Assembly (NCBI GenBank): GCA_032622095.1
Contig: CP136064.1
Location: forward strand, 257,217,863 to 257,281,862
Reading direction: 5' to 3'
Source: Siphonodentalium dalli
Lineage: Eukaryota; Mollusca; Scaphopoda; Gadilida; Siphonodentaliidae
Length of the DNA stretch: 64,000 nt
This document shows positions 1,458 to 60,914 of the stretch, in pieces. Position 1 is the first letter of the stretch. Every line of letters begins with the position of its first letter. A program made the translations under genes and the position numbers. The notes under the pieces were generated by a model. The model was not told the origin of the DNA and ran no database searches. It was given only the letters and a program-made list of their open reading frames with translations.

Positions 1458-1718
1458 TTAACCCTTTGAGTGCCAGGGGCCGATCTAATCAGCCCTAAAC
1501 CTACACAATAAGTCTGTTAAAGAATATAATAAAATATATTAAAATTGTAAAAAATTGTAAAAAAAAAAGAATAAAAAAAAAGAAGAAGATTGTTAGGCCA
1601 ATGCATTCTCTTATATATGCGAGGCGACCTATGGTCGACTCGCATATATAAGAGAATGCATTGGCACAGGGTATATGGGTTGATACAAAAATCGACCTGG
1701 CACTCAAAGGGGGGTTAA
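1458..1718 (+). mobile_element. D-family piggyBac-like MITE (D1)
   Basis: Begins TTAACCCTTTGAGTGCCAGG and ends in the inverse, CCTGGCACTCAAAGG followed by GGGGTTAA. TTAA target duplications plus CCCTT ends are the piggyBac signature. It carries one palindromic hairpin (GCATTCTCTTATATATGCG and its complement) at about 1603-1664. The cassette end CAGGG at 1671 is followed by TA. No coding capacity. Confidence 0.8.
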
Positions 1719-1840
1719 TTAACCCTTCCATGACTGGAGCTTCTTGAAATTTTGCGAAAACCCTGTGCCAATGCATTCTCTTATATATGTGAAGCTCCCT
1801 ATGGATTAAAGATCCTGTTCCAGTGCATTCTCTTATATAC
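1719..1840 (+). mobile_element. E-family piggyBac-like MITE, truncated (E1)
   Basis: Starts TTAACCCTTCCATGACTGGA directly against the TTAA end of the preceding D element, then runs into CCCTGTGCCAATGCATTC and a partial second hairpin arm. The right terminus is missing. Same family as the copies near 12.0, 23.5, 30.1, 56.2, 56.6 and 58.7 kb. Confidence 0.7.
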
Positions 1841-10623: not shown

Positions 10624-12191
10624 TTAATAATCAGCGATTTGTATAAATACGATTATTTTAATACATGTACTCGTACTAAATATCACTTCTATACTATATA
10701 TACATTGTTTACAATGCTAAATTCATCCAGTTTAAATGTAACAATGTATAGTATTCTCGGAGAAGACAACTTTAATTTCAGTTTTGTATGTCTTAGTCTT
10801 GTTTTCGTTTTCTCTGAGAAAAATAACATAAATAACACATTGATTATTCCTTTAAGGTTGCAAGTAAGTGCAGATACTATGTAAATGTTAAAAAATGTGT
10901 CCTCTCCGATAATTCAAGACAATTATATTTAAATATTGAGAAACACATGTTTTATGAACAACACTTCCATCAAACCACTTGTTATCACTGACATGATTAT
11001 CAATAATCAAGATTTTCTTCAGAATGACAATTTGTTCAGACAATGGCAGTTGAGCAGACATGAATTGCCTCATTGGAAATAAATGAAATAACACATTAGT
11101 AGCTGAAACTGGGCACAGTATGTTACATATACTGTATTTTAACGTATTACATTATTCCTACACCCCATTCTCATTAACAGAATGATTATAGTTTAATATA
11201 ACCAATGTCTTCCAGAAAATTTCTGGGTTTCATGCTTGAATTCTCGGAGAGGACATTTTTTTTAACATTTAATTAGCTGCTGTACCAAATTGGGATGGTT
11301 CAGCCCACCAATTAAAGTTTATGCGATCTCAGTACCAGTGAGAGGTTACCCACAATACAAAATGATTTTCTCATTTCATTAGTATTAGCAGTTGACAAAG
11401 ATTCTCGGAGAGGACAGATTTTAACGGAATTTCTGTGCACATATTTTGAAGAATTGAATATAATTTAAATAGACTAATGCACAGAAAAAGATATTTACCT
11501 GTAATCTTCTATACCATGCACTGTCCAAATGAACTATATTCCTGATTCATGGTTATTGTAAATTGTGTTTATGAAAAGCTTAATTTTAGATTAACATGTT
11601 ATAAATCATTTAACGGAAATTCTCCTATAACCTTTAAATTCAAATATCTTCAATCTGAATGCATGATATCACTTGAAATTTTCACCACAAGATCAACCAG
11701 ACATAAGCTAAAGGTTAAATGAGGACATTTTTGGCAAACCCATAAATACAAATAAATATAAGGAAAACTAAATCATCACAGCAATGGTTGGCCACTCAAA
11801 ATAAGCCAAAATTGGTACCCATCGCCCTATAATTTTGTTATTTTTTCAAATGTAGTAGTGAAATTTGGTCTGCAGTTTGGGCTGTGTGTCAGCACTATAT
11901 AAATATTATTCAGACACTCCAAACATAATGACAAATGCATCATTTTCCCTCATATCCGAAAAATTAATTTTGTCAACCTTTAACGTGAAAGAACCCATAT
12001 GCGAGTCTCCCATAGGGAGCCTCGCATATCTGACAGAATGCACTGGCTCACTAGGTCAAGGTGAATATTGTTAGACCAATGTTTTCTCTTATATATGCAA
12101 GGCTCCATATTGGAGACTCGCATATATAAGAGAATGCATTGGGACAGGGTTTTCACAAAATTTCAGGAAACTCCCATCATGGAAGGGTTAA

Positions 12192-12969
12192 TATTGGTAC
12201 ACCTCTGCTGTCTCCATTATGGGTGTACCCCTCCCATATTTTAACCCTTTACCCAACAAACCGGCCAAAACCGGCCAAATAAAGCTTCAACAGCCTCAAA
12301 TATCTTCGGTCTGTCTCAATAGAACCATACAAATATGGATATCATTGGAACCGGCTCCTTGACCACATTGTGATAGTTACAGTTATGCCCTGTGCCAATG
12401 CATTCTCTTATATATGCGAGTCGACCATAGGTTGCCTCGCATATATAAGAGAATGCATTGGCCTAAAAAAAATCTTTTTTTAACACTTTTTACCATTTTT
12501 TCTTACATTCTTTAACAATTTTATAATTTTGAATGTGTTAAGCCAATGCATTCTCTTATATATGCGAGGCGACCTATGGTCGACTCGCATATATAAGAGA
12601 ATGCATTGGCACAGGGCCGTTCTGTTGGGTAAAGGGTTAACACATGAATTTCAGAAATATTTTTATCTTTCTTCATCTTGTAAGAGCCATATGACTCATT
12701 TGTAAGAACCATAATAAAGATATAAAAAATGTTGATGTTAACCCTCAGGGTGCCTTTATTCCGACCACATCTCTCCAAATCACTTCTTCTATCATCTGTT
12801 CTCTACTGTACTATGATGACTAACTTACTATTGTATTGTAATATTTACTTCTAAGAATATATTGAAGCATTAAGACCAGATCAAAGGATCTTCAAAAGTT
12901 TATTAAGGTACCACACTGAACTAGTCACCTTAGACGGCCTATCACCAATGATGTCATACCCCGAGGGCG
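12192..12969 (+). repeat. R-family repeat, copy 2, interrupted by C1
   Basis: Matches copy 1 at 7361-7764 on both sides of the inserted C element: GTACACCTCTGCTG before it and CACATGAATTTCAGAAATAT after it, then TTAACCCTCAGGGTGCCTTT to CCGAGGGC. Copy 1 is the empty-site version (CCAATTCTAACACATGAATT). Confidence 0.75.
12241..12640 (+). mobile_element. C-family piggyBac-like MITE (C1)
   Basis: 400 bp. Ends TTAACCCTTTACCCAACA and TGTTGGGTAAAGGGTTAA. Order: left unique arm (ACCGGCCAAAACCGGCC, AGCTTCAACAGCC, ATCTTCGGTCTGTCTCAATA), cassette start CCCTGTGCCAATGCATTC at 12388, hairpin 1, AT-rich spacer, hairpin 2, GCATTGGCACAGGG, right end. TTAA duplication and CCCTT ends indicate piggyBac; no coding capacity. 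Confidence 0.9.
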
Positions 12970-13339: not shown

Positions 13340-13739
13340 TTAACCCTTTACCCAACAAACCGGCCAAAACCGGCCAAATAAAGCTTCAACAGCCTAAAAT
13401 ATCTTCGGTCTGTCTCAATAGAACCATACAAATATGGATATCATTGGAACCGGCTCCTTGACCACATTGTGATAGTTACAGTTATGCCCTGTGCCAATGC
13501 ATTCTCTTATATATGCGAGTCGACCATAGGTCGCCTCGCATATATAAGAGAATGCATTGGCCTAAAAAAAATCTTTTTTTAACACTTTTTACCATTTTTT
13601 CTTACATTCTTTAACAATTTTATAATTTTTAATGTGTTAAGCCAATGCATTCTCTTATATATGCGAGGCGACCTATGGTCGACTCGCATATATAAGAGAA
13701 TGCATTGGCACAGGGCCCTTCTGTTGGGTAAAGGGTTAA
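13340..13739 (+). mobile_element. C-family piggyBac-like MITE (C2)
   Basis: Same structure as C1 and almost identical to it. Inserted at the TTAA of CCATATTTAA at the end of U copy 1. Confidence 0.9.
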
Positions 13740-19099: not shown

Positions 19100-19465
19100 T
19101 TAACCTTTCCATGAACAGATCTTCCTGAAGTTTTGCAAAAACCATATGCCAATGCATTCTCTTATATATGCGAGTTTGGCAACAATAAATTGAACTAAAA
19201 AAGAAAATCAACGAAACTGTCAAAGTGTGGACAATTTTCAACTATAAATGACGAATAAAAGTGGCAAATATAAGAGAATACATGTACATTGGCCTAACAA
19301 TATTTACCTTGACCTTGGAAGCCAGTGCATTCTCTTATATGGGAGAATCATATATAAGAGAATACATTGGCCTAACAATATTTACCTTGACCTTGGGAGC
19401 CAGTGCATTCTCTTATATGGGAGACTCACATTATATAAGAGTATGCAATGGCACAGAATCTTGAA
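19100..19465. mobile_element. E-family MITE with internal insertion (E9)
   Basis: TTAACCTTTCCATGAACAGA start, then hairpin arms GCATTCTCTTATATATGCGA. A ~100 bp N repeat sits at 19168-19268 and a duplicated CCTAACAATATTTACCTTGA block follows. The right end abuts the D element at 19462. Confidence 0.65.
19168..19268 (-). repeat. N repeat, copy 1
   Basis: Inverted counterpart of 23115-23225: GTGTGGACAATTTTCAACTA versus TAGTTGACAGTTGTCCACAC, and AACTAAAAAAGAAAATCAA versus TTGATTTTCTTTTTTTAGT. Two copies only. Confidence 0.6.
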
Positions 19466-19924
19466 CCCTTTCAGTGCCAAGTCCGATTTTTGTATCAACC
19501 CATATACCCTGTGCCAATGCATTCTCTTATATATGCGAGTCGACCATAGGTCGTCTCGCATATATAAGAGAATGCATTGGCCTAACAATTTTTCATCATT
19601 TGTTATTATTTTTTACAATTTTTTACAATTTTAATATTTTTTTCTTATATTCTTTAACAGACTTATTTTGTAGGTTTAGTGCCAGGGAATCTTACGTTTT
19701 TCATGGGCATCAAACTTATTACTATGAATACTTGGTGATAGTTTTGAGTTATAACATGCCCCTAAGGTTTTATCCAGTTTGTTTTTAAATTCGCCATACC
19801 ATGCTTAAGCATACCCAAAAAAATTCAACCCCAAAAAAAAGAGAAATTTTTATTTTTTTAGGGCCGATTTTACGGACCATAAATTAGGGCCGATGAGATC
19901 GGCCCCTGGCACTGAAAGGGTTAA
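19462..19924 (-). mobile_element. D-family piggyBac-like MITE, long form (D5)
   Basis: Left end (TGAA, decayed TTAA) CCCTTTCAGTGCCAAGTC; right end GCCCCTGGCACTGAAAGGG then TTAA. One cassette hairpin at about 19507-19585, preceded by TA at 19505. On the - strand the end GGGGCCGATCTCATCGGCCC matches the left end of D1 at 1458. Confidence 0.8.
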
Positions 19925-20279: not shown

Positions 20280-21112
20280 ACACGCCTTTAAATAGTGTGT
20301 CTGTCATGTGCAGAATGAGGTCCCCAGAAGGTGAATTTAGTGACGCTATCCCGCACAGCATCACCAAATTCAACCTCTTGGAACCTCATTCTGCATAGGC
20401 CTCAACTGCTTTGGGAGACCTACTATCAGATTTAACCCTTTACCCAACAAACGGGCCAAAACCGGCCAAATAAAGCTTCAACAGCCTAAAATATCTTCGG
20501 TCTGTCTCAATAGAACCATACAAATATGGATATCATTGGAACCGGCTTCTTGACCACATTGTGATAGTTACAGTTATGCCCTGTGCCAATGCATTCTCTT
20601 ATATATGCGAGTCGACCATAGGTCGCCTCGCATATATAAGAGAATGCATTGGCCTAAAAAAAATCTTTTAACACTTTTTACCATTTTTTCTTACATTCTT
20701 TAACAATTTTATAATTTTTAATGTGTTAAGCCAATGCATTCTCTTATATATGCGAGGCGACCTATGGTCGACTCGCATATATAAGAGAATGCATTGGCAC
20801 AGGGCCCTTCTGTTGGGTAAAGGGTTAAGACCCCAGTTAAAGTTGGCGATTTTCGCCCCATTAGTCACTTCAATTATGCATTTTATCTTCTGAAAATTAT
20901 GGGATATAGAAACTTCCCAGAAGGGTAAAAGGTAACTAAAGACATTGTTAATTTAGAACTATAGATACTTCCCAGAAGATGAGGCCTAATCAGCATGAGG
21001 TCCCCAGAGGGGGAAATTTATTGATGCCAGCCCACCGTGCATGATAGAAACACTAAATCCAACCTCTGAAGACCTCATTCTGCTAATGACAGACACACTA
21101 TTTGCAGACTTG
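20280..21112. mobile_element. A-family MITE, long form, interrupted by C3 (A5)
   Basis: A hairpin at 20310-20400, then the middle GGCCTCAACTGCTTTGGGAG, the C3 insertion at the TTAA at 20432, and the rest with GATGAGGCCTAATCAGCATG to GCAGACTTG at 21112. Confidence 0.75.
20432..20828 (+). mobile_element. C-family piggyBac-like MITE (C3)
   Basis: Complete, with TTAA at both ends; nested in the A-family copy around it, so younger than that copy. Both cassette hairpins are intact. Confidence 0.92.
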
Positions 21113-23963: not shown

Positions 23964-24364
23964 TTAACCCTTTACCCAACAAACCGGCCAAAACCGGCCA
24001 AATAAAGCTTCAACAGCCTAAAATATCTTCGGTCTGTCTCAATAGAACCATACAAATATGGATATCATTGGAACCGGCTCCTTGACCACATTGTGATAGT
24101 TACAGTTATGCCCTGTGCCAATGCATTCTCTTATATATGCGAGTCGACCATAGGTCGCCTCGCATATATAAGAGAATGCATTGGCCTAAAAAAAATCTTT
24201 TTTTTAACACTTTTTACCATTTTTTCTTACATTCTTTAACAATTTTATAATATTTAATGTGTTAAGCCAATGCATTCTCTTATATATGCGAGGCGACCTA
24301 TGGTCGACTCGCATATATAAGAGAATGCATTGGCACAGGGCCGTTCTGTTGGGTAAAGGGTTAA
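23964..24364 (+). mobile_element. C-family piggyBac-like MITE (C4)
   Basis: Complete with TTAA both ends and two hairpins; nearly identical to C1-C3. Confidence 0.92.
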
Positions 24365-28286: not shown

Positions 28287-28718
28287 TTAACCCTTTACCC
28301 AACAAAACGGCCCTGTGCCAATGCATTCTCTTATATATGCGAGTCGACCATAGGTCGCCTCCATATATAAGAGAATGCATTGGCTTAACACATATTAAAA
28401 ATGATAAAATTGTCAAAGAATGTAGAAAGAATTATAAAATTGTTAAAGAATGTAAGAAAAAATGGTAAAAAGTGTTAAAAAATGAATTTTGTTTAGGCCA
28501 ATGCATTCTCTTATATATGCGAGGCGACCTATGGTCGACTCGCATATATAAGAGAATGCATTGGCACAGGGCATAACTGTAACCACCACAATGTGGTCAA
28601 TGAACCGGTTCCAATGATATCCATATTTGTATGGTGTTATTGAGACAGACCGAAGATATTTTAGGCTGTTGAAGCTTTATTTGGGCGTTTTTGGCCGTTT
28701 TATTGGGTAAAGGGTTAA
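28287..28718 (-). mobile_element. C-family piggyBac-like MITE (C5), inverted
   Basis: TTAACCCTTTACCCAACAAA short arm at the left, long arm (AGCTTTATTTGGGCGTTTTT) at the right; TTAA both ends; both hairpins present. More diverged than C1-C4 and slightly longer in the spacer. Confidence 0.9.
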
Positions 28719-30088: not shown

Positions 30089-30404
30089 CCAACCCTGTGC
30101 GCTGGTGCAGCATTAAAGATCCTGTGCCAGTGCATTCTCTTATATATGCGAGTCTCATAGGGAGCCTCGCATATTTAGGAGAAATTAGAGAATGTACTGG
30201 CTTACAAGATCAATGTAAATGTTGTTAAGCCAATGTATTCTCTTATATATGTGAGAAATTAGAGAATGTTCTGGCTTACAAGATCAATGTAAATGTTGTT
30301 AGGCCAATGTATTCTCTTATATATGTGAGACTCGCATATATAAGAGGATGCATTGGCACAGGATTTTCGTTAAATTTCAGGAACTCTAGTCATGGAAGGG
30401 TTAA
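30089..30404. mobile_element. E-family MITE with internal duplication (E8)
   Basis: Decayed left TTAA, GGTGCAGCATTAAAGATCCT, hairpin arms, and a ~75 bp block (TTAGAGAATGTNCTGGCTTA then CAAGATCAATGTAAATGTTG) present twice, ending CATGGAAGGGTTAA. Confidence 0.7.
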
Positions 30405-32572: not shown

Positions 32573-32892
32573 TTAACCCTTTACCCAACAAACCGGCCAA
32601 AACCGGCCAAATAAAGCTTCAACAGCCTAAAATATCTTCGGTCTGTCTCAATAGAACCATACAAATATGGATATCATTGGAACCGGCTCCTTGACCACAT
32701 TGTGATAGTTACAGTTATGCCCTGTGCCAATGCATTCTCTTATATATGCGAGTCGACCATTTTTTAACAATTTTATAATTTTTAATGTGTTAAGCCAATG
32801 CATTCTCTTATATATGCGAGGCGACCTATGGTCGACTCGCATATATAAGAGAATGCATTGGCACAGGGCCTTTCTGTTGGGTAAAGGGTTAA
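32573..32892 (+). mobile_element. C-family piggyBac-like MITE (C6), internal deletion
   Basis: Both TTAA ends are present, but the deletion removes half of hairpin 1 and part of the spacer: GAGTCGACCA joins directly to TTTTTTAACAATTTTATAAT. 320 bp. Confidence 0.9.
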
Positions 32893-43996: not shown

Positions 43997-44397
43997 TTAA
44001 CCCTTTACCCAACAGAACGGCCCTGTGCCAATGCATTCTCTTATATATGCGAGTCGACCATAGGTCGCCTCGCATATATAAGAGAATGCATTGGCTTAAC
44101 ACATTAAAAATTATAAAATTGTTAAAGAATGTAAGAAAAAAATGGTAAAAAGTGTTAAAAAAAGATTTTTTTTAGGCCAATGCATTCTCTTATATATGCG
44201 AGGCGACCTATGGTCGACTCGCATATAAAAGAGAATGCATTGGCACAGGGCATAACTGTAACTATCACAATGTGGTCAAGGAGCCGGTTCCAATGATATC
44301 CATATTTGTATGGTTCTATTGAGACAGACCGAAGATATTTTAGGCTGTTGAAGCTTTATTTGGCCGGTTTTGGCCGTTTTTTTGGGTAAAGGGTTAA
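43997..44397 (-). mobile_element. C-family piggyBac-like MITE (C7), inverted
   Basis: TTAA both ends, short arm CCCTTTACCCAACAGAACGG at the left, long arm at the right; both hairpins present. Confidence 0.92.
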
Positions 44398-47336: not shown

Positions 47337-47794
47337 TGTGACCCGCCATATCAAATCCAGTCGTGAGTCGGGATTTTTTTTACCCTGTGCCAATGCATTC
47401 TTTTATATATGCGAGTCGACCGTAAGTCGCCTCGCATATATAAGAGAATGCATTGGCCTAACAATTTTTTATCATTTTTTTTAAATAAATGTTTCTTACA
47501 ATTTTTAGTACATAAAATAAAAAACATCCATTACCCTGCAGGGAGCCCCACACATATATAGAAGCATATAGAAGAGTGTTGTCTGCTCATGTTTGTCTGG
47601 GGCTCTGTATGGGTGAAATTATAAAATTGTTAAAGAATACAAGAAAAAATTATTAAAATTGTAAAAAATTGTTAGGCCAATGCATTCTCTTATATATGCG
47701 AGGCGACCTATGGTCTTGCATATATAAGAGAATGCATTGGCACAGGGTAAAAAAAAATCCCGACTTACGACTGGATTTGATATGGCGGGTCACA
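47337..47794. mobile_element. S-family MITE carrying the palindromic cassette
   Basis: Ends TGTGACCCGCCATATCAAAT and the complement, extending ~45 bp to GTCGGGATTTTTTTT. The cassette (CCCTGTGCCAATGCATTC to its complement, 47383-47747) lies at the centre between TA dinucleotides: hairpin 1, an AT-rich spacer with a GC-richer insert at 47530-47615, hairpin 2. The ends are unrelated to the TTAACCC families. Target duplication not resolved. Confidence 0.85.
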
Positions 47795-48270
47795 AATACC
47801 CACTGAATGTCAACGAGTGCTCATTGAAAATATAATAAAAATCTTCCAACTATTATCAACTAAATGTCAAGATTTAATCTTCGATTTCTAACGCCTACCT
47901 AATTTTCACAGATTGTGTACTTAAAATTTTAAAAATTCAAAAATCTATAAAAATATCAATTATCTGTGAAGATTTTATCTTTAATCTCTGCAGTCTAGCT
48001 CATTGCTAAAGACTACTCGATGGGCAATGAAATATATCCCAATATGTCATCAACTTGTCCAGAATGTTTATAATGCCTCAGGTAGACTTAGCAATTTATA
48101 TCAAGTAAATGTCGAGATTTAATCTTCAATTTCTGATGACTACATAAACGTCATTGCTGAAATTTATCAAAAAATCTTTGAAATATTTATCAACTTGTTG
48201 AGAATTAATCTTTAATCTGCCCACGTGGAGTTGACAATTTTATATCAACTAAATGTCAAGATTTAATATT
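47795..48270 (+). repeat. Degenerate tandem (ATGTCAAGATTTAATCTTCG type)
   Basis: ATCAACTAAATGTCAAGATT, TTAATCTTCRATTTCT and ATATATCCCAATATGTCATC-like phrases recur irregularly; a related single unit is at 50930-51030 (CAACTTGTTGAGAATTAATC). Confidence 0.55.
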
Positions 48271-53685: not shown

Positions 53686-54093
53686 TTAACCCTTTACCCA
53701 ACAAACCGGCCAAAACCAGCCAAATAAAGCTTCAACAGCCTAAAATATCTTCGGTCTGTCTCAATAGAACCATACAAATATGGATATCATTGGAACCGGC
53801 TCCTTGACCACATTGAACATTGAGATAGTTACAGTTATGCCCTGTGCCAATGCATTCTCTTATATATGCGAGTCGACCATGGGTCGCCTCGCATATATAA
53901 GAGAATGCATTGGCATAAAAAAAAATCTTTTTTTAACACTTTTTACCATTTTTTCTTACATTCTTTATCAATTTTATAATATTTAATGTGTTAAGCCAAT
54001 GCATTCTCTTATATATGCGAGGCGACGTATGGTCGACTCGCATATATAAGAGAATGCATTGGCACAGGGCCCTTCTGTTGGGTAAAGGGTTAA
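53686..54093 (+). mobile_element. C-family piggyBac-like MITE (C8)
   Basis: Complete with TTAA both ends and both hairpins; a small insertion (AACATTGA) in the left arm near 53815. Confidence 0.92.
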
Positions 54094-56600: not shown

Positions 56601-56811
56601 TTAAAACATTGGAGCTTCCTGAAATTATGTGAAAACCCTGTGCCAATGCATTCTCTTATATATGCAAGTCTCCCATAGGGAGCCTCGCATAGATACCTTG
56701 TAAGCGATAGAATTATCTTATAAATGCGAGGCTCCCTATGGGAGACTCGCTTATATAAGAGAATGCACTTGCACATGATCTTTAATGCTGCGCCTGTCAT
56801 GAAAGGGTTAA
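56601..56811 (+). mobile_element. E-family MITE (E3)
   Basis: GGAGCTTCCTGAAATTATGT, hairpin with CTCCCATAGGGAGCC loop, spacer, inverted hairpin, CTGCGCCTGTCATGAAAGGG then TTAA. The final TTAA is shared with the D element that follows. Confidence 0.8.
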
Positions 56812-57003
56812 CCCTTTCAGTGCCAAGTCCAATTCCTTGATCATTTTTCAAATTTATTGATTATAATAATGTGATACATTGATGGAAAGAGCTCTTAGAG
56901 CTATTTCCATCAATGTATCACATTATTATATTCAATAAATTTGAAAAATGATCAAGGAAATATGGGTTGATACAAAAATCGGACTTGGCACTGAAAGGGT
57001 TAA
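56808..57003. mobile_element. D-family MITE (D3), full palindrome without cassette
   Basis: TTAACCCTTTCAGTGCCAAG to CTTGGCACTGAAAGGGTTAA; arms ATGTGATACATTGATGGAAA and complement meet at AGAGCTCTTAGAGCT. Shows the D-type ends around a different palindromic core. Confidence 0.9.
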
Positions 57004-60131: not shown

Positions 60132-60533
60132 TTAACCCTTTACCCAACAGAAGGGCCCTGTGCCAATGCATTCTCTTATATATGCGAGTCGACCATAGGT
60201 CGCCTCGCATATATAAGAGAATGCATTGGCTTAACACATTAAAAATTACAAAATTGTTAAAGAATGTAAGAAAAAATGGTAAAAAGTGTTTAAAAAACAG
60301 ATTTTTTTAAGGCCAATGCATTCTCTTATATATGCGAGGCGACCTATGGTCGACTCGCATATATAAGAGAATGCATTGGCACAGGGCATAACTGTAACCA
60401 TCACAATGTGGTCAATGAGCCGGTTCCAATGATATCTATATTTGTATGGTTCTAATGAGACAGACCGAAGATATTTTAGGCTGTTGAAGCTTTAATTGGC
60501 CGGTTTTGGCCGGTTTGTTGGGTAAAGGGTTAA
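60132..60533 (-). mobile_element. C-family piggyBac-like MITE (C9), inverted
   Basis: TTAA both ends; complete with two hairpins; immediately followed, head to head, by C10. Confidence 0.92.
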
Positions 60534-60914
60534 AAGCAACAAACCGGCCAAATAAAGCTTCAACAGCCTAAAATATCTTCGGTCTGTCTCAATAGAACCA
60601 TACAAATATGGATATCATTGGAACCGGCTCCTTGACCACATTGTGATAGTTACAGTTATGCCCTGTGCCAATGCATTCTCTTATATATGCGAGTCGACCA
60701 TAGGTCGCCTCGCATATATAAGAGAATGCATTGGCCTAAAACAAATTATTTTTTTAACACTTTTTACCATTTTTTCTTACATTCTTTAACAATTTTATAA
60801 TTTGTAATGTGTTAAGCCAATGCATTCTCTTATATATGCGAGGTGACCTATGGTCGACTCGCATATATAAGAGAATGCATTGGCACAGGGCCGTTCTGTT
60901 GGGTAAAGGGTTAA
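60534..60914 (+). mobile_element. C-family piggyBac-like MITE (C10), left end truncated
   Basis: Starts AAGCAACAAACCGGCCAAAT (about 14 terminal bases missing) and runs to GTTGGGTAAAGGGTTAA. With C9 it makes an inverted pair of roughly 780 bp joined at their long arms. Confidence 0.92.

Follow-up and report, generated by a model that had tools for sequence, protein, structure and literature searches.

Accounts of MITEs usually rest on the element ends alone. The closest described systems are the CMITE families of Acropora corals, which carry different TIRs and ends (TTAA, CC[C/T]T) around a shared interior that is better conserved than these TIRs are (Wang et al., 2010; PMC2872659). These elements are described there as about 100 bp long, with an interior of 75 bases and about 1600 copies in A. 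millepora, and as resembling a piggyBac partner only weakly; the interior is said to be of unknown origin and is suspected of a role in transposition, with ascertainment bias given by the authors as part of the cause (PMC2872659). The same report also describes CMITE-IN as an element made by MITE insertion and cites MITEs whose internal sequence enhances transposition. Such enhancing interiors would be a functional parallel to the families described below, in which one interior spans two target-site classes. They have reportedly been studied within one kind of element. Among the titles and abstract openings of the openly licensed literature, no second report of this kind was recognised besides PMC2872659.

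In the features described for corals, the families analysed here resemble CMITEs: a shared interior, different ends, CC[C/T]T/TTAA termini and tandem arrays. They differ in length (about 250-460 bp), in having two inverted hairpins (one in the D family) and in numbering more than 150,000 hairpin starts; moreover, not all carriers have TTAA sites, the S family being of an AWWT class. Shared-interior MITEs are already known from corals, and the present families belong to the same kind; what is added here is a carrier family that does not fall in the TTAA class, an arrangement in two hairpins, very large copy numbers, an assembly route for the D family, and a variation test on C copies that were not picked by their interior. 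The ends vary down to the target-site class while the interior stays constant, its hairpin start being present more than 150,000 times. This suggests that spread depends on the interior of these elements as well as on their ends. The idea raised for corals in 2010, that the interior matters for transposition, becomes statistically and experimentally testable.

The window, that is, the whole stretch of 64,000 nucleotides that was analysed, corresponds to C4:257217863-257281862 of an assembly of 2.23 Gb in nine contigs. The cassette block predicted at 47337-47794 was present there, inside a full-length S element of 458 bp (family consensus 460 bp, from 27 copies) composed of 46-nt arms and two inverted 75-nt hairpins with an AT-rich spacer between them:

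47337..47794, forward strand: S element, full length, with 39 further full-length copies at 96-97% identity on contigs C1-C5 and C7-C9
47334..47337, forward strand: left target duplication AAAT, a 4-bp duplication seen in 17/23 S copies
47794..47797, forward strand: right target duplication AAAT, from the same duplication analysis of S copies
47337..47382, forward strand: 46-nt S left arm, which forms an inverted repeat with the right arm (45 nt, 98% complementary)
47383..47457, forward strand: hairpin 1 of the cassette, inverted repeat I4, where the S family consensus equals the C consensus
47458..47672, forward strand: AT-rich spacer with the S-only centre (palindrome GAGCCCC..GGGGCTC)
47673..47747, reverse strand: hairpin 2 of the cassette, inverted copy, inverted repeats I1, I3 and I5
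47748..47794, reverse strand: S right arm

The first genome search with the S element yielded 3299 candidates, and the 40 places scored among them, the query itself included, were all full-length or nearly so, at 96-100% identity. The 22-nt S end has 13,429 matches per strand genome-wide (at most 1 mismatch). The third palindrome, GAGCCCC..GGGGCTC in the middle of the S spacer (window ~47530-47620), is absent from the C consensus. Comparison of the S element with Rfam gave 28 matches at E up to 1, all below the gathering score, and no assignment to a microRNA precursor.

The ends of the S, C, D and E elements were located where they had been predicted, and the window holds the following members of the latter three families:

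12241..12640, forward strand: C element with the full cassette, hairpins at 12388-12462 and 12542-12616, TTAA on both sides
13340..13739, forward strand: C element
20432..20828, forward strand: C element
23964..24364, forward strand: C element
28287..28718, reverse strand: C element with a longer spacer
32573..32892, forward strand: C element that has lost the inner arm of hairpin 1 and some of the spacer
43997..44397, reverse strand: C element
53686..54093, forward strand: C element
60132..60533, reverse strand: C element
60536..60914, forward strand: C element, left end truncated, adjoining the C element at 60132..60533
1458..1718, reverse strand: D element directly next to an E element, holding a single hairpin and half of the spacer
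19462..19924, forward strand: long D element with one hairpin
1719..1737, forward strand: E element end (TTAACCCTTCCATGACTGG), cassette from 1761
12076..12191, reverse strand: E element end and first hairpin
30303..30404, reverse strand: E element end and first hairpin

The cassette had been predicted inside all four families. This holds for C and S, whereas D contains only one hairpin and half of the spacer; the elements at 1458 and 19462 are both D as proposed, although the latter begins with TGAACCC. E elements do carry the cassette with other loops, as expected: their loops are their own, and the consensus spacer is short (27 nt) and apparently of different text. One E-ended copy, at L073 1224-1575 (hereafter E'), possesses C-type loops and an AT-rich spacer and bridges the E and C types.

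With at most 2 mismatches allowed, the window contains the hairpin start TGTGCCAATGCATT 64 times, compared with 1.44 expected and a maximum of 4 in 100 shuffles. Read from the outside in, the S-left, S-right, C-left and C-right consensus hairpins and that of the D copy L092 show no difference across 72 nt, and the window D at 19462 (99%), E1 (93%), E2 (90%) and both E' hairpins (94%) come close to that set. The 24-nt flanks just outside the cassette, in contrast, are 8-50% identical between families (C-left/D 50%, the next pair 38%), and those of S are 8-25% identical to the C and D flanks, so that between families the interior is more conserved than the ends, as described for CMITEs. Spacer text is shared as well: S-right matches C at 46/53 and D at 43/45 positions, and E' matches C at 53/67 and S-right at 49/61 (each 0/1000 in Markov sequences), with weaker matches for C/D (34/41; 5/1000 Markov sequences) and E'/D (36/44; 1/1000), the D and E' comparisons resting on a single copy each. 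The original prediction of a common spacer text fails for the left half of the S spacer, which resembles E' and C no more than chance would have it (191/1000 and 679/1000 Markov sequences). Convergence of a short palindrome, which had already been argued against, is ruled out by the shared spacer, and S as a diverged or decayed C or D copy is ruled out by the 8-25% flank identity together with the AWWT rather than TTAA duplication; the S termini are indeed wholly different from those of the TTAA families. One homologous internal module therefore lies under at least four sets of termini, as had been proposed, and S belongs to another target-site class.

Divergence from the consensus amounts to 2.0% in C, 3.0% in S and 9.3% in E (12 E copies), and E is older than C and S. 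As E' combines E ends with C-type loops and spacer, the modern cassette is likely to derive from an E-like ancestor, judging from sequence comparison; an exchange in the opposite direction, of a modern cassette into E, is possible.

TTAA was found at both ends of 31/33 C copies (the exceptions have TTGA at one of their ends and ATAA at both, respectively), where the search pattern used to collect the copies itself contained TTAA and tolerated up to 2 mismatches, and where TTAA is indistinguishable from the element's own end. Consensus or typical copies of C, D and E continue after TTAA with CC[C/T]T (TTAACCCTTT or TTAACCCTTC), and typical D and E copies also end in TTAACCCTT. In TTAA and in ends beginning CCCT, these three families are alike to piggyBac-type MITEs in general. 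S has no TTAA target duplication but AWWT, and its ends read GTGACCC. The S duplication is 4 bp long (ATAT, AAAT, ATTT) and exact in 17/23 copies when the element boundaries are taken as GTGACCC..GGGTCAC, and duplications of 3 bp or 5 bp occur in none of these 23 copies. They are the 27 consensus copies minus L003, which ends with a further S arm, and minus L018, L020 and L022, which repeat L017, L015 and L013 in reverse via a segmental duplication. From S copies with reverse-complementary flanks (L013/L022, L015/L020, L017/L018), contig C1 at ~1.79-2.08 Mb and at 3.35-3.59 Mb seems to constitute this inverted segmental duplication.

The AWWT duplications outside S and the TTAA at C ends point to movement of S and C as whole elements by their outer ends. 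The 18-nt hairpin start is present 156,842 times genome-wide (78,609 + 78,233), and exact junctions number 39,202 for C-left, 20,232 for S and 13,964 for D; these assign 73,398/156,842 starts, C-right and E junctions lying outside the count. Exact hairpin starts of 33 letters are preceded by A/G in 122,941 cases and by C/T in 1,043, which is expected if few junctions exist. We inspected 354 kb in 91 stretches, chosen in a way that enriches for S ends and C/T-preceded starts, and found 171 cassette starts, 151 of them with a known family arm in front (at most 4 errors): S 50, C-right 37, E1 25, C-left 24, E2 11 and D 4, with 20 starts unassigned. At this cut-off 28/2000 random window positions pass, and at 6 errors 589/2000, which is too loose. 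The 20 unassigned starts were read from the 34 letters in front, with L021, L047, L049, L051, L059, L064 and L073 read from both sides, and comprise eight decayed E, five mutated or truncated S, one truncated D, two in another repeat (L009, L072), two chance matches (W 3689, W 49056) and two ambiguous cases (L047 at 58, W 19456). Among the five S starts, L021 and L051 lack family arms on both sides; they retain part of the S-only centre and are broken in or near it, which makes them broken S copies. S ends are joined directly to the cassette in 46/47 distinct ends in L001-L043, the odd one being an S arm fused to the final bases of an S end. Three stretches of C1 show near-constant spacing of hairpin starts, at 820-921 kb (~11.17 kb; D junctions), 736-779 kb (~14.56 kb; C-left junctions) and 94.237-94.292 Mb (~7.86 kb; C-preceded starts), and lie in long tandem arrays.

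These data bear on the claim that the cassette itself is being mobilised, which exceeds the evidence. A cassette that was once a MITE with ends CCCTGTGCC..GGCACAGGG, inserted into unrelated MITEs in nested pairs that then multiplied, would fit the homology beginning at the same place in every family (one letter shorter in E2), the inverted repeat formed by the cassette ends, and the TA that flanks the cassette on both sides in S, whose arms together would make a palindrome centred on TA; a predicted empty site also exists for the D-arm palindrome CAACCCATATATGGGTTG (C6:174208936). Yet among the 171 starts in 354 kb no armless intact cassette was recognised, and no cassette-only copy with its own target duplication, two ambiguous cases apart; nor do the cassette edges share a duplication (C has ATG/CCG, E has AAAA/ATC). 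Cassette-free S and C with exact arms (gaps of at most 28 nt) were met at one and two places, respectively, none of them an intact empty site; all keep hairpin scraps and are internal deletions, so they do not qualify as precursors. Of the 42 places with D-arm palindromes, most are, by eye, centre deletions of another D module. With AWWT duplications outside S and TTAA at the ends of C, mobilisation of the module as a unit is unsupported, and the insertion origin is in our opinion quite unlikely.

Composite transposons and nested MITEs are known arrangements, and the D family resembles the former in that two D ends appear to bracket a passenger; it is unlike both in that what the ends bracket is one half of the core of a different MITE, and in that the composite turned into a separate family. 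The modern cassette spacer contains TTCTTTAACA. In the D copy L092 (~1401-1863), the spacer TTAA is followed by CTCTTTCAGTGCCAGACTTATTTTG, which is a D terminus (17/18 letters of TTAACCCTTTCAGTGCCA), and the other end of the element inserted in this spacer is the left end of the D element. Among eight D spacer junctions, one keeps TTAACTCTTTCAGTGCCA at the spacer TTAA, while seven are without its 12 inner nucleotides (CTCTTTCAGTGC) and keep the remainder, in one case altered by a point change; the seven include both halves of a single dimer (L093). In a ninth D copy, L046, the junction stretch is lost. D is a composite, and its assembly may be reconstructed from the single intermediate L092, in a route that explains D alone: a D-ended MITE would have landed in the spacer TTAA of a cassette already flanked by a D arm on its outer side, the two outermost D ends would then have bracketed a D element plus half a cassette and moved jointly, and the junction deletion would have arisen later. 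The family thereby suggests one way in which a MITE may acquire a new interior. Another palindromic module, unrelated to the cassette, likewise lies between D arms (TTCCTTGATCATTTTTCAAATTTATTGA..; window 56808-57003, 46590 and 63344), so interior swapping in D is not limited to this cassette.

We then compared variation between copies. In modern C and S elements the hairpins vary less from copy to copy than the remaining sequence does, and none of the variants that recur in at least two C copies lies inside a hairpin. After exclusion of CpG, A/T runs of at least 4 and two columns biased by locus choice, C columns with a shared variant number 0/134 in the hairpins versus 17/143 elsewhere (33 copies, p 1e-5), 0/134 versus 14/143 once a duplicated locus is removed (32 copies, p 1e-4), and 0/134 versus 8/143 with arm-picked copies also dropped (15 copies, p 0.007), the 8 columns being confined to the left arm, where they may reflect a single subfamily. 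In S, 17 copies (27 minus seven picked by overall similarity and three duplicates) have shared variants in 1/134 hairpin columns versus 11/182 elsewhere (p 0.016). The C result speaks against hairpins that are alike only through youth and a recent common ancestor, with arms exchanged once each and nothing conserved. Such youth would be in line with the low divergence of C and S copies from their consensus, but the best-aligned S/C spacer differs at 7/53 sites while the hairpins differ at 0/72, and the shared variants within C avoid the hairpins; we disfavour this reading and consider it very doubtful.

Singleton variants are less clear-cut. In C, they fill 20/4380 hairpin cells versus 31/4656 elsewhere (33 copies, p 0.21), 17/4246 versus 34/4513 with the duplicated locus dropped and some arm-picked copies remaining (p 0.035), 9/1977 versus 19/2114 with duplicate and arm-picked copies dropped (p 0.09), and 20/3853 versus 31/4706 with the picked arm masked and the duplicate kept (p 0.48); a further cut with the duplicate kept gave p 0.85. 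S singleton columns amount to 28/134 in hairpins versus 81/182 elsewhere (17 copies). In E, hairpin constraint is absent among 12 copies (shared-variant columns 20/140 versus 17/92; divergence 9.4% versus 9.1%). Selection on source copies and homogenisation are both possible explanations of the hairpin invariance; with rarer singletons in hairpins, homogenisation or a lower mutation rate fits as well as selection, and together with the E result they favour homogenisation or a newly gained role.

Homogenisation between copies is the main rival to the interpretation that we prefer, and the two would look much alike. Gene conversion or template switching would keep the hairpins alike without any function of their own, and palindromes as recombination hot spots would also explain the swapping of arms. 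The hairpins are identical across families, more than 150,000 hairpin starts could serve as donors, singletons are rarer in S hairpins and weakly so in C hairpins, and E lacks hairpin constraint, all of which this explanation accommodates; the same E hairpins were, on the other hand, not homogenised. Complementary changes on both hairpin sides, which count in favour of the preferred interpretation, do distinguish E from C/S/D at pairs 36/46 and 37/45, and the E2 hairpin has changed A-T to G-C at pair 11/71. Within individual hairpins, however, changes are mostly one-sided (416 cells in 174 unique sequences), so the arms have not been corrected against each other in most copies, and correction of palindromes within single copies as a rule is contradicted; apparent double changes at pair 34/48 proved to be an artefact of hairpins read in the other direction. 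We regard homogenisation as possible, somewhat on the improbable side.

We give even chances to our preferred interpretation, that the core was taken over by several MITE families moving by their own ends and that the hairpins aid amplification in cis. A two-hairpin core, probably from an old piggyBac-type MITE (E), would have been adopted by several other MITE families, each carrier moving by its own outer ends (TTAA in C, D and E; AWWT in S). The D composite would then have moved as one and become the D family, and C and S may have arisen via similar composite or recombination events, for which no composite intermediates were found. The hairpins would be a cis-acting amplification aid, for instance as a DNA hairpin or cruciform or as an internal enhancer, a mechanism of our own choosing, and sources with intact hairpins would have multiplied. 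When the two hairpins of one C copy are folded as single-stranded DNA, the best structure pairs them with each other instead of folding each on itself (-97 kcal/mol, z -27), so that either fold may be the one that matters. We hold it to be unlikely that the hairpin pair is a module parasitic on MITEs, acting in cis and independently of the transposase to increase the copy number of its carriers, passing between families of different transposase classes and being under transposon-level purifying selection. The odds of all these explanations overlap and need not sum to one.

A transposase partner for C, D and E was sought around piggyBac-domain matches, of which there are 128 genome-wide (649 candidates, 116 scored; some genes match in two pieces). 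Around the 18/128 matches inspected, six with ~1.5 kb on each side and twelve with 800 nt downstream only, we detected neither C/D/E ends nor the hairpin arm, and none of the 18 fits as the autonomous partner. Many piggyBac transposase genes have long open frames, several in groups near-identical in score and length, which indicates active or recently active families.

Besides, S-type arms with a GGAAGTC variant and with outer hairpin arms only were observed at L030 1501-2912 (C1:4494474-4497495) and at L033, where they bracket ~1.2 kb with GC-rich inverted repeats, a cargo replacing the hairpin loop. The flanks beyond the L030 and L033 arms are themselves inverted repeats, and an open stretch in the L030 cargo matches the Bcl-2 family (PF00452, E 1.3e-10).
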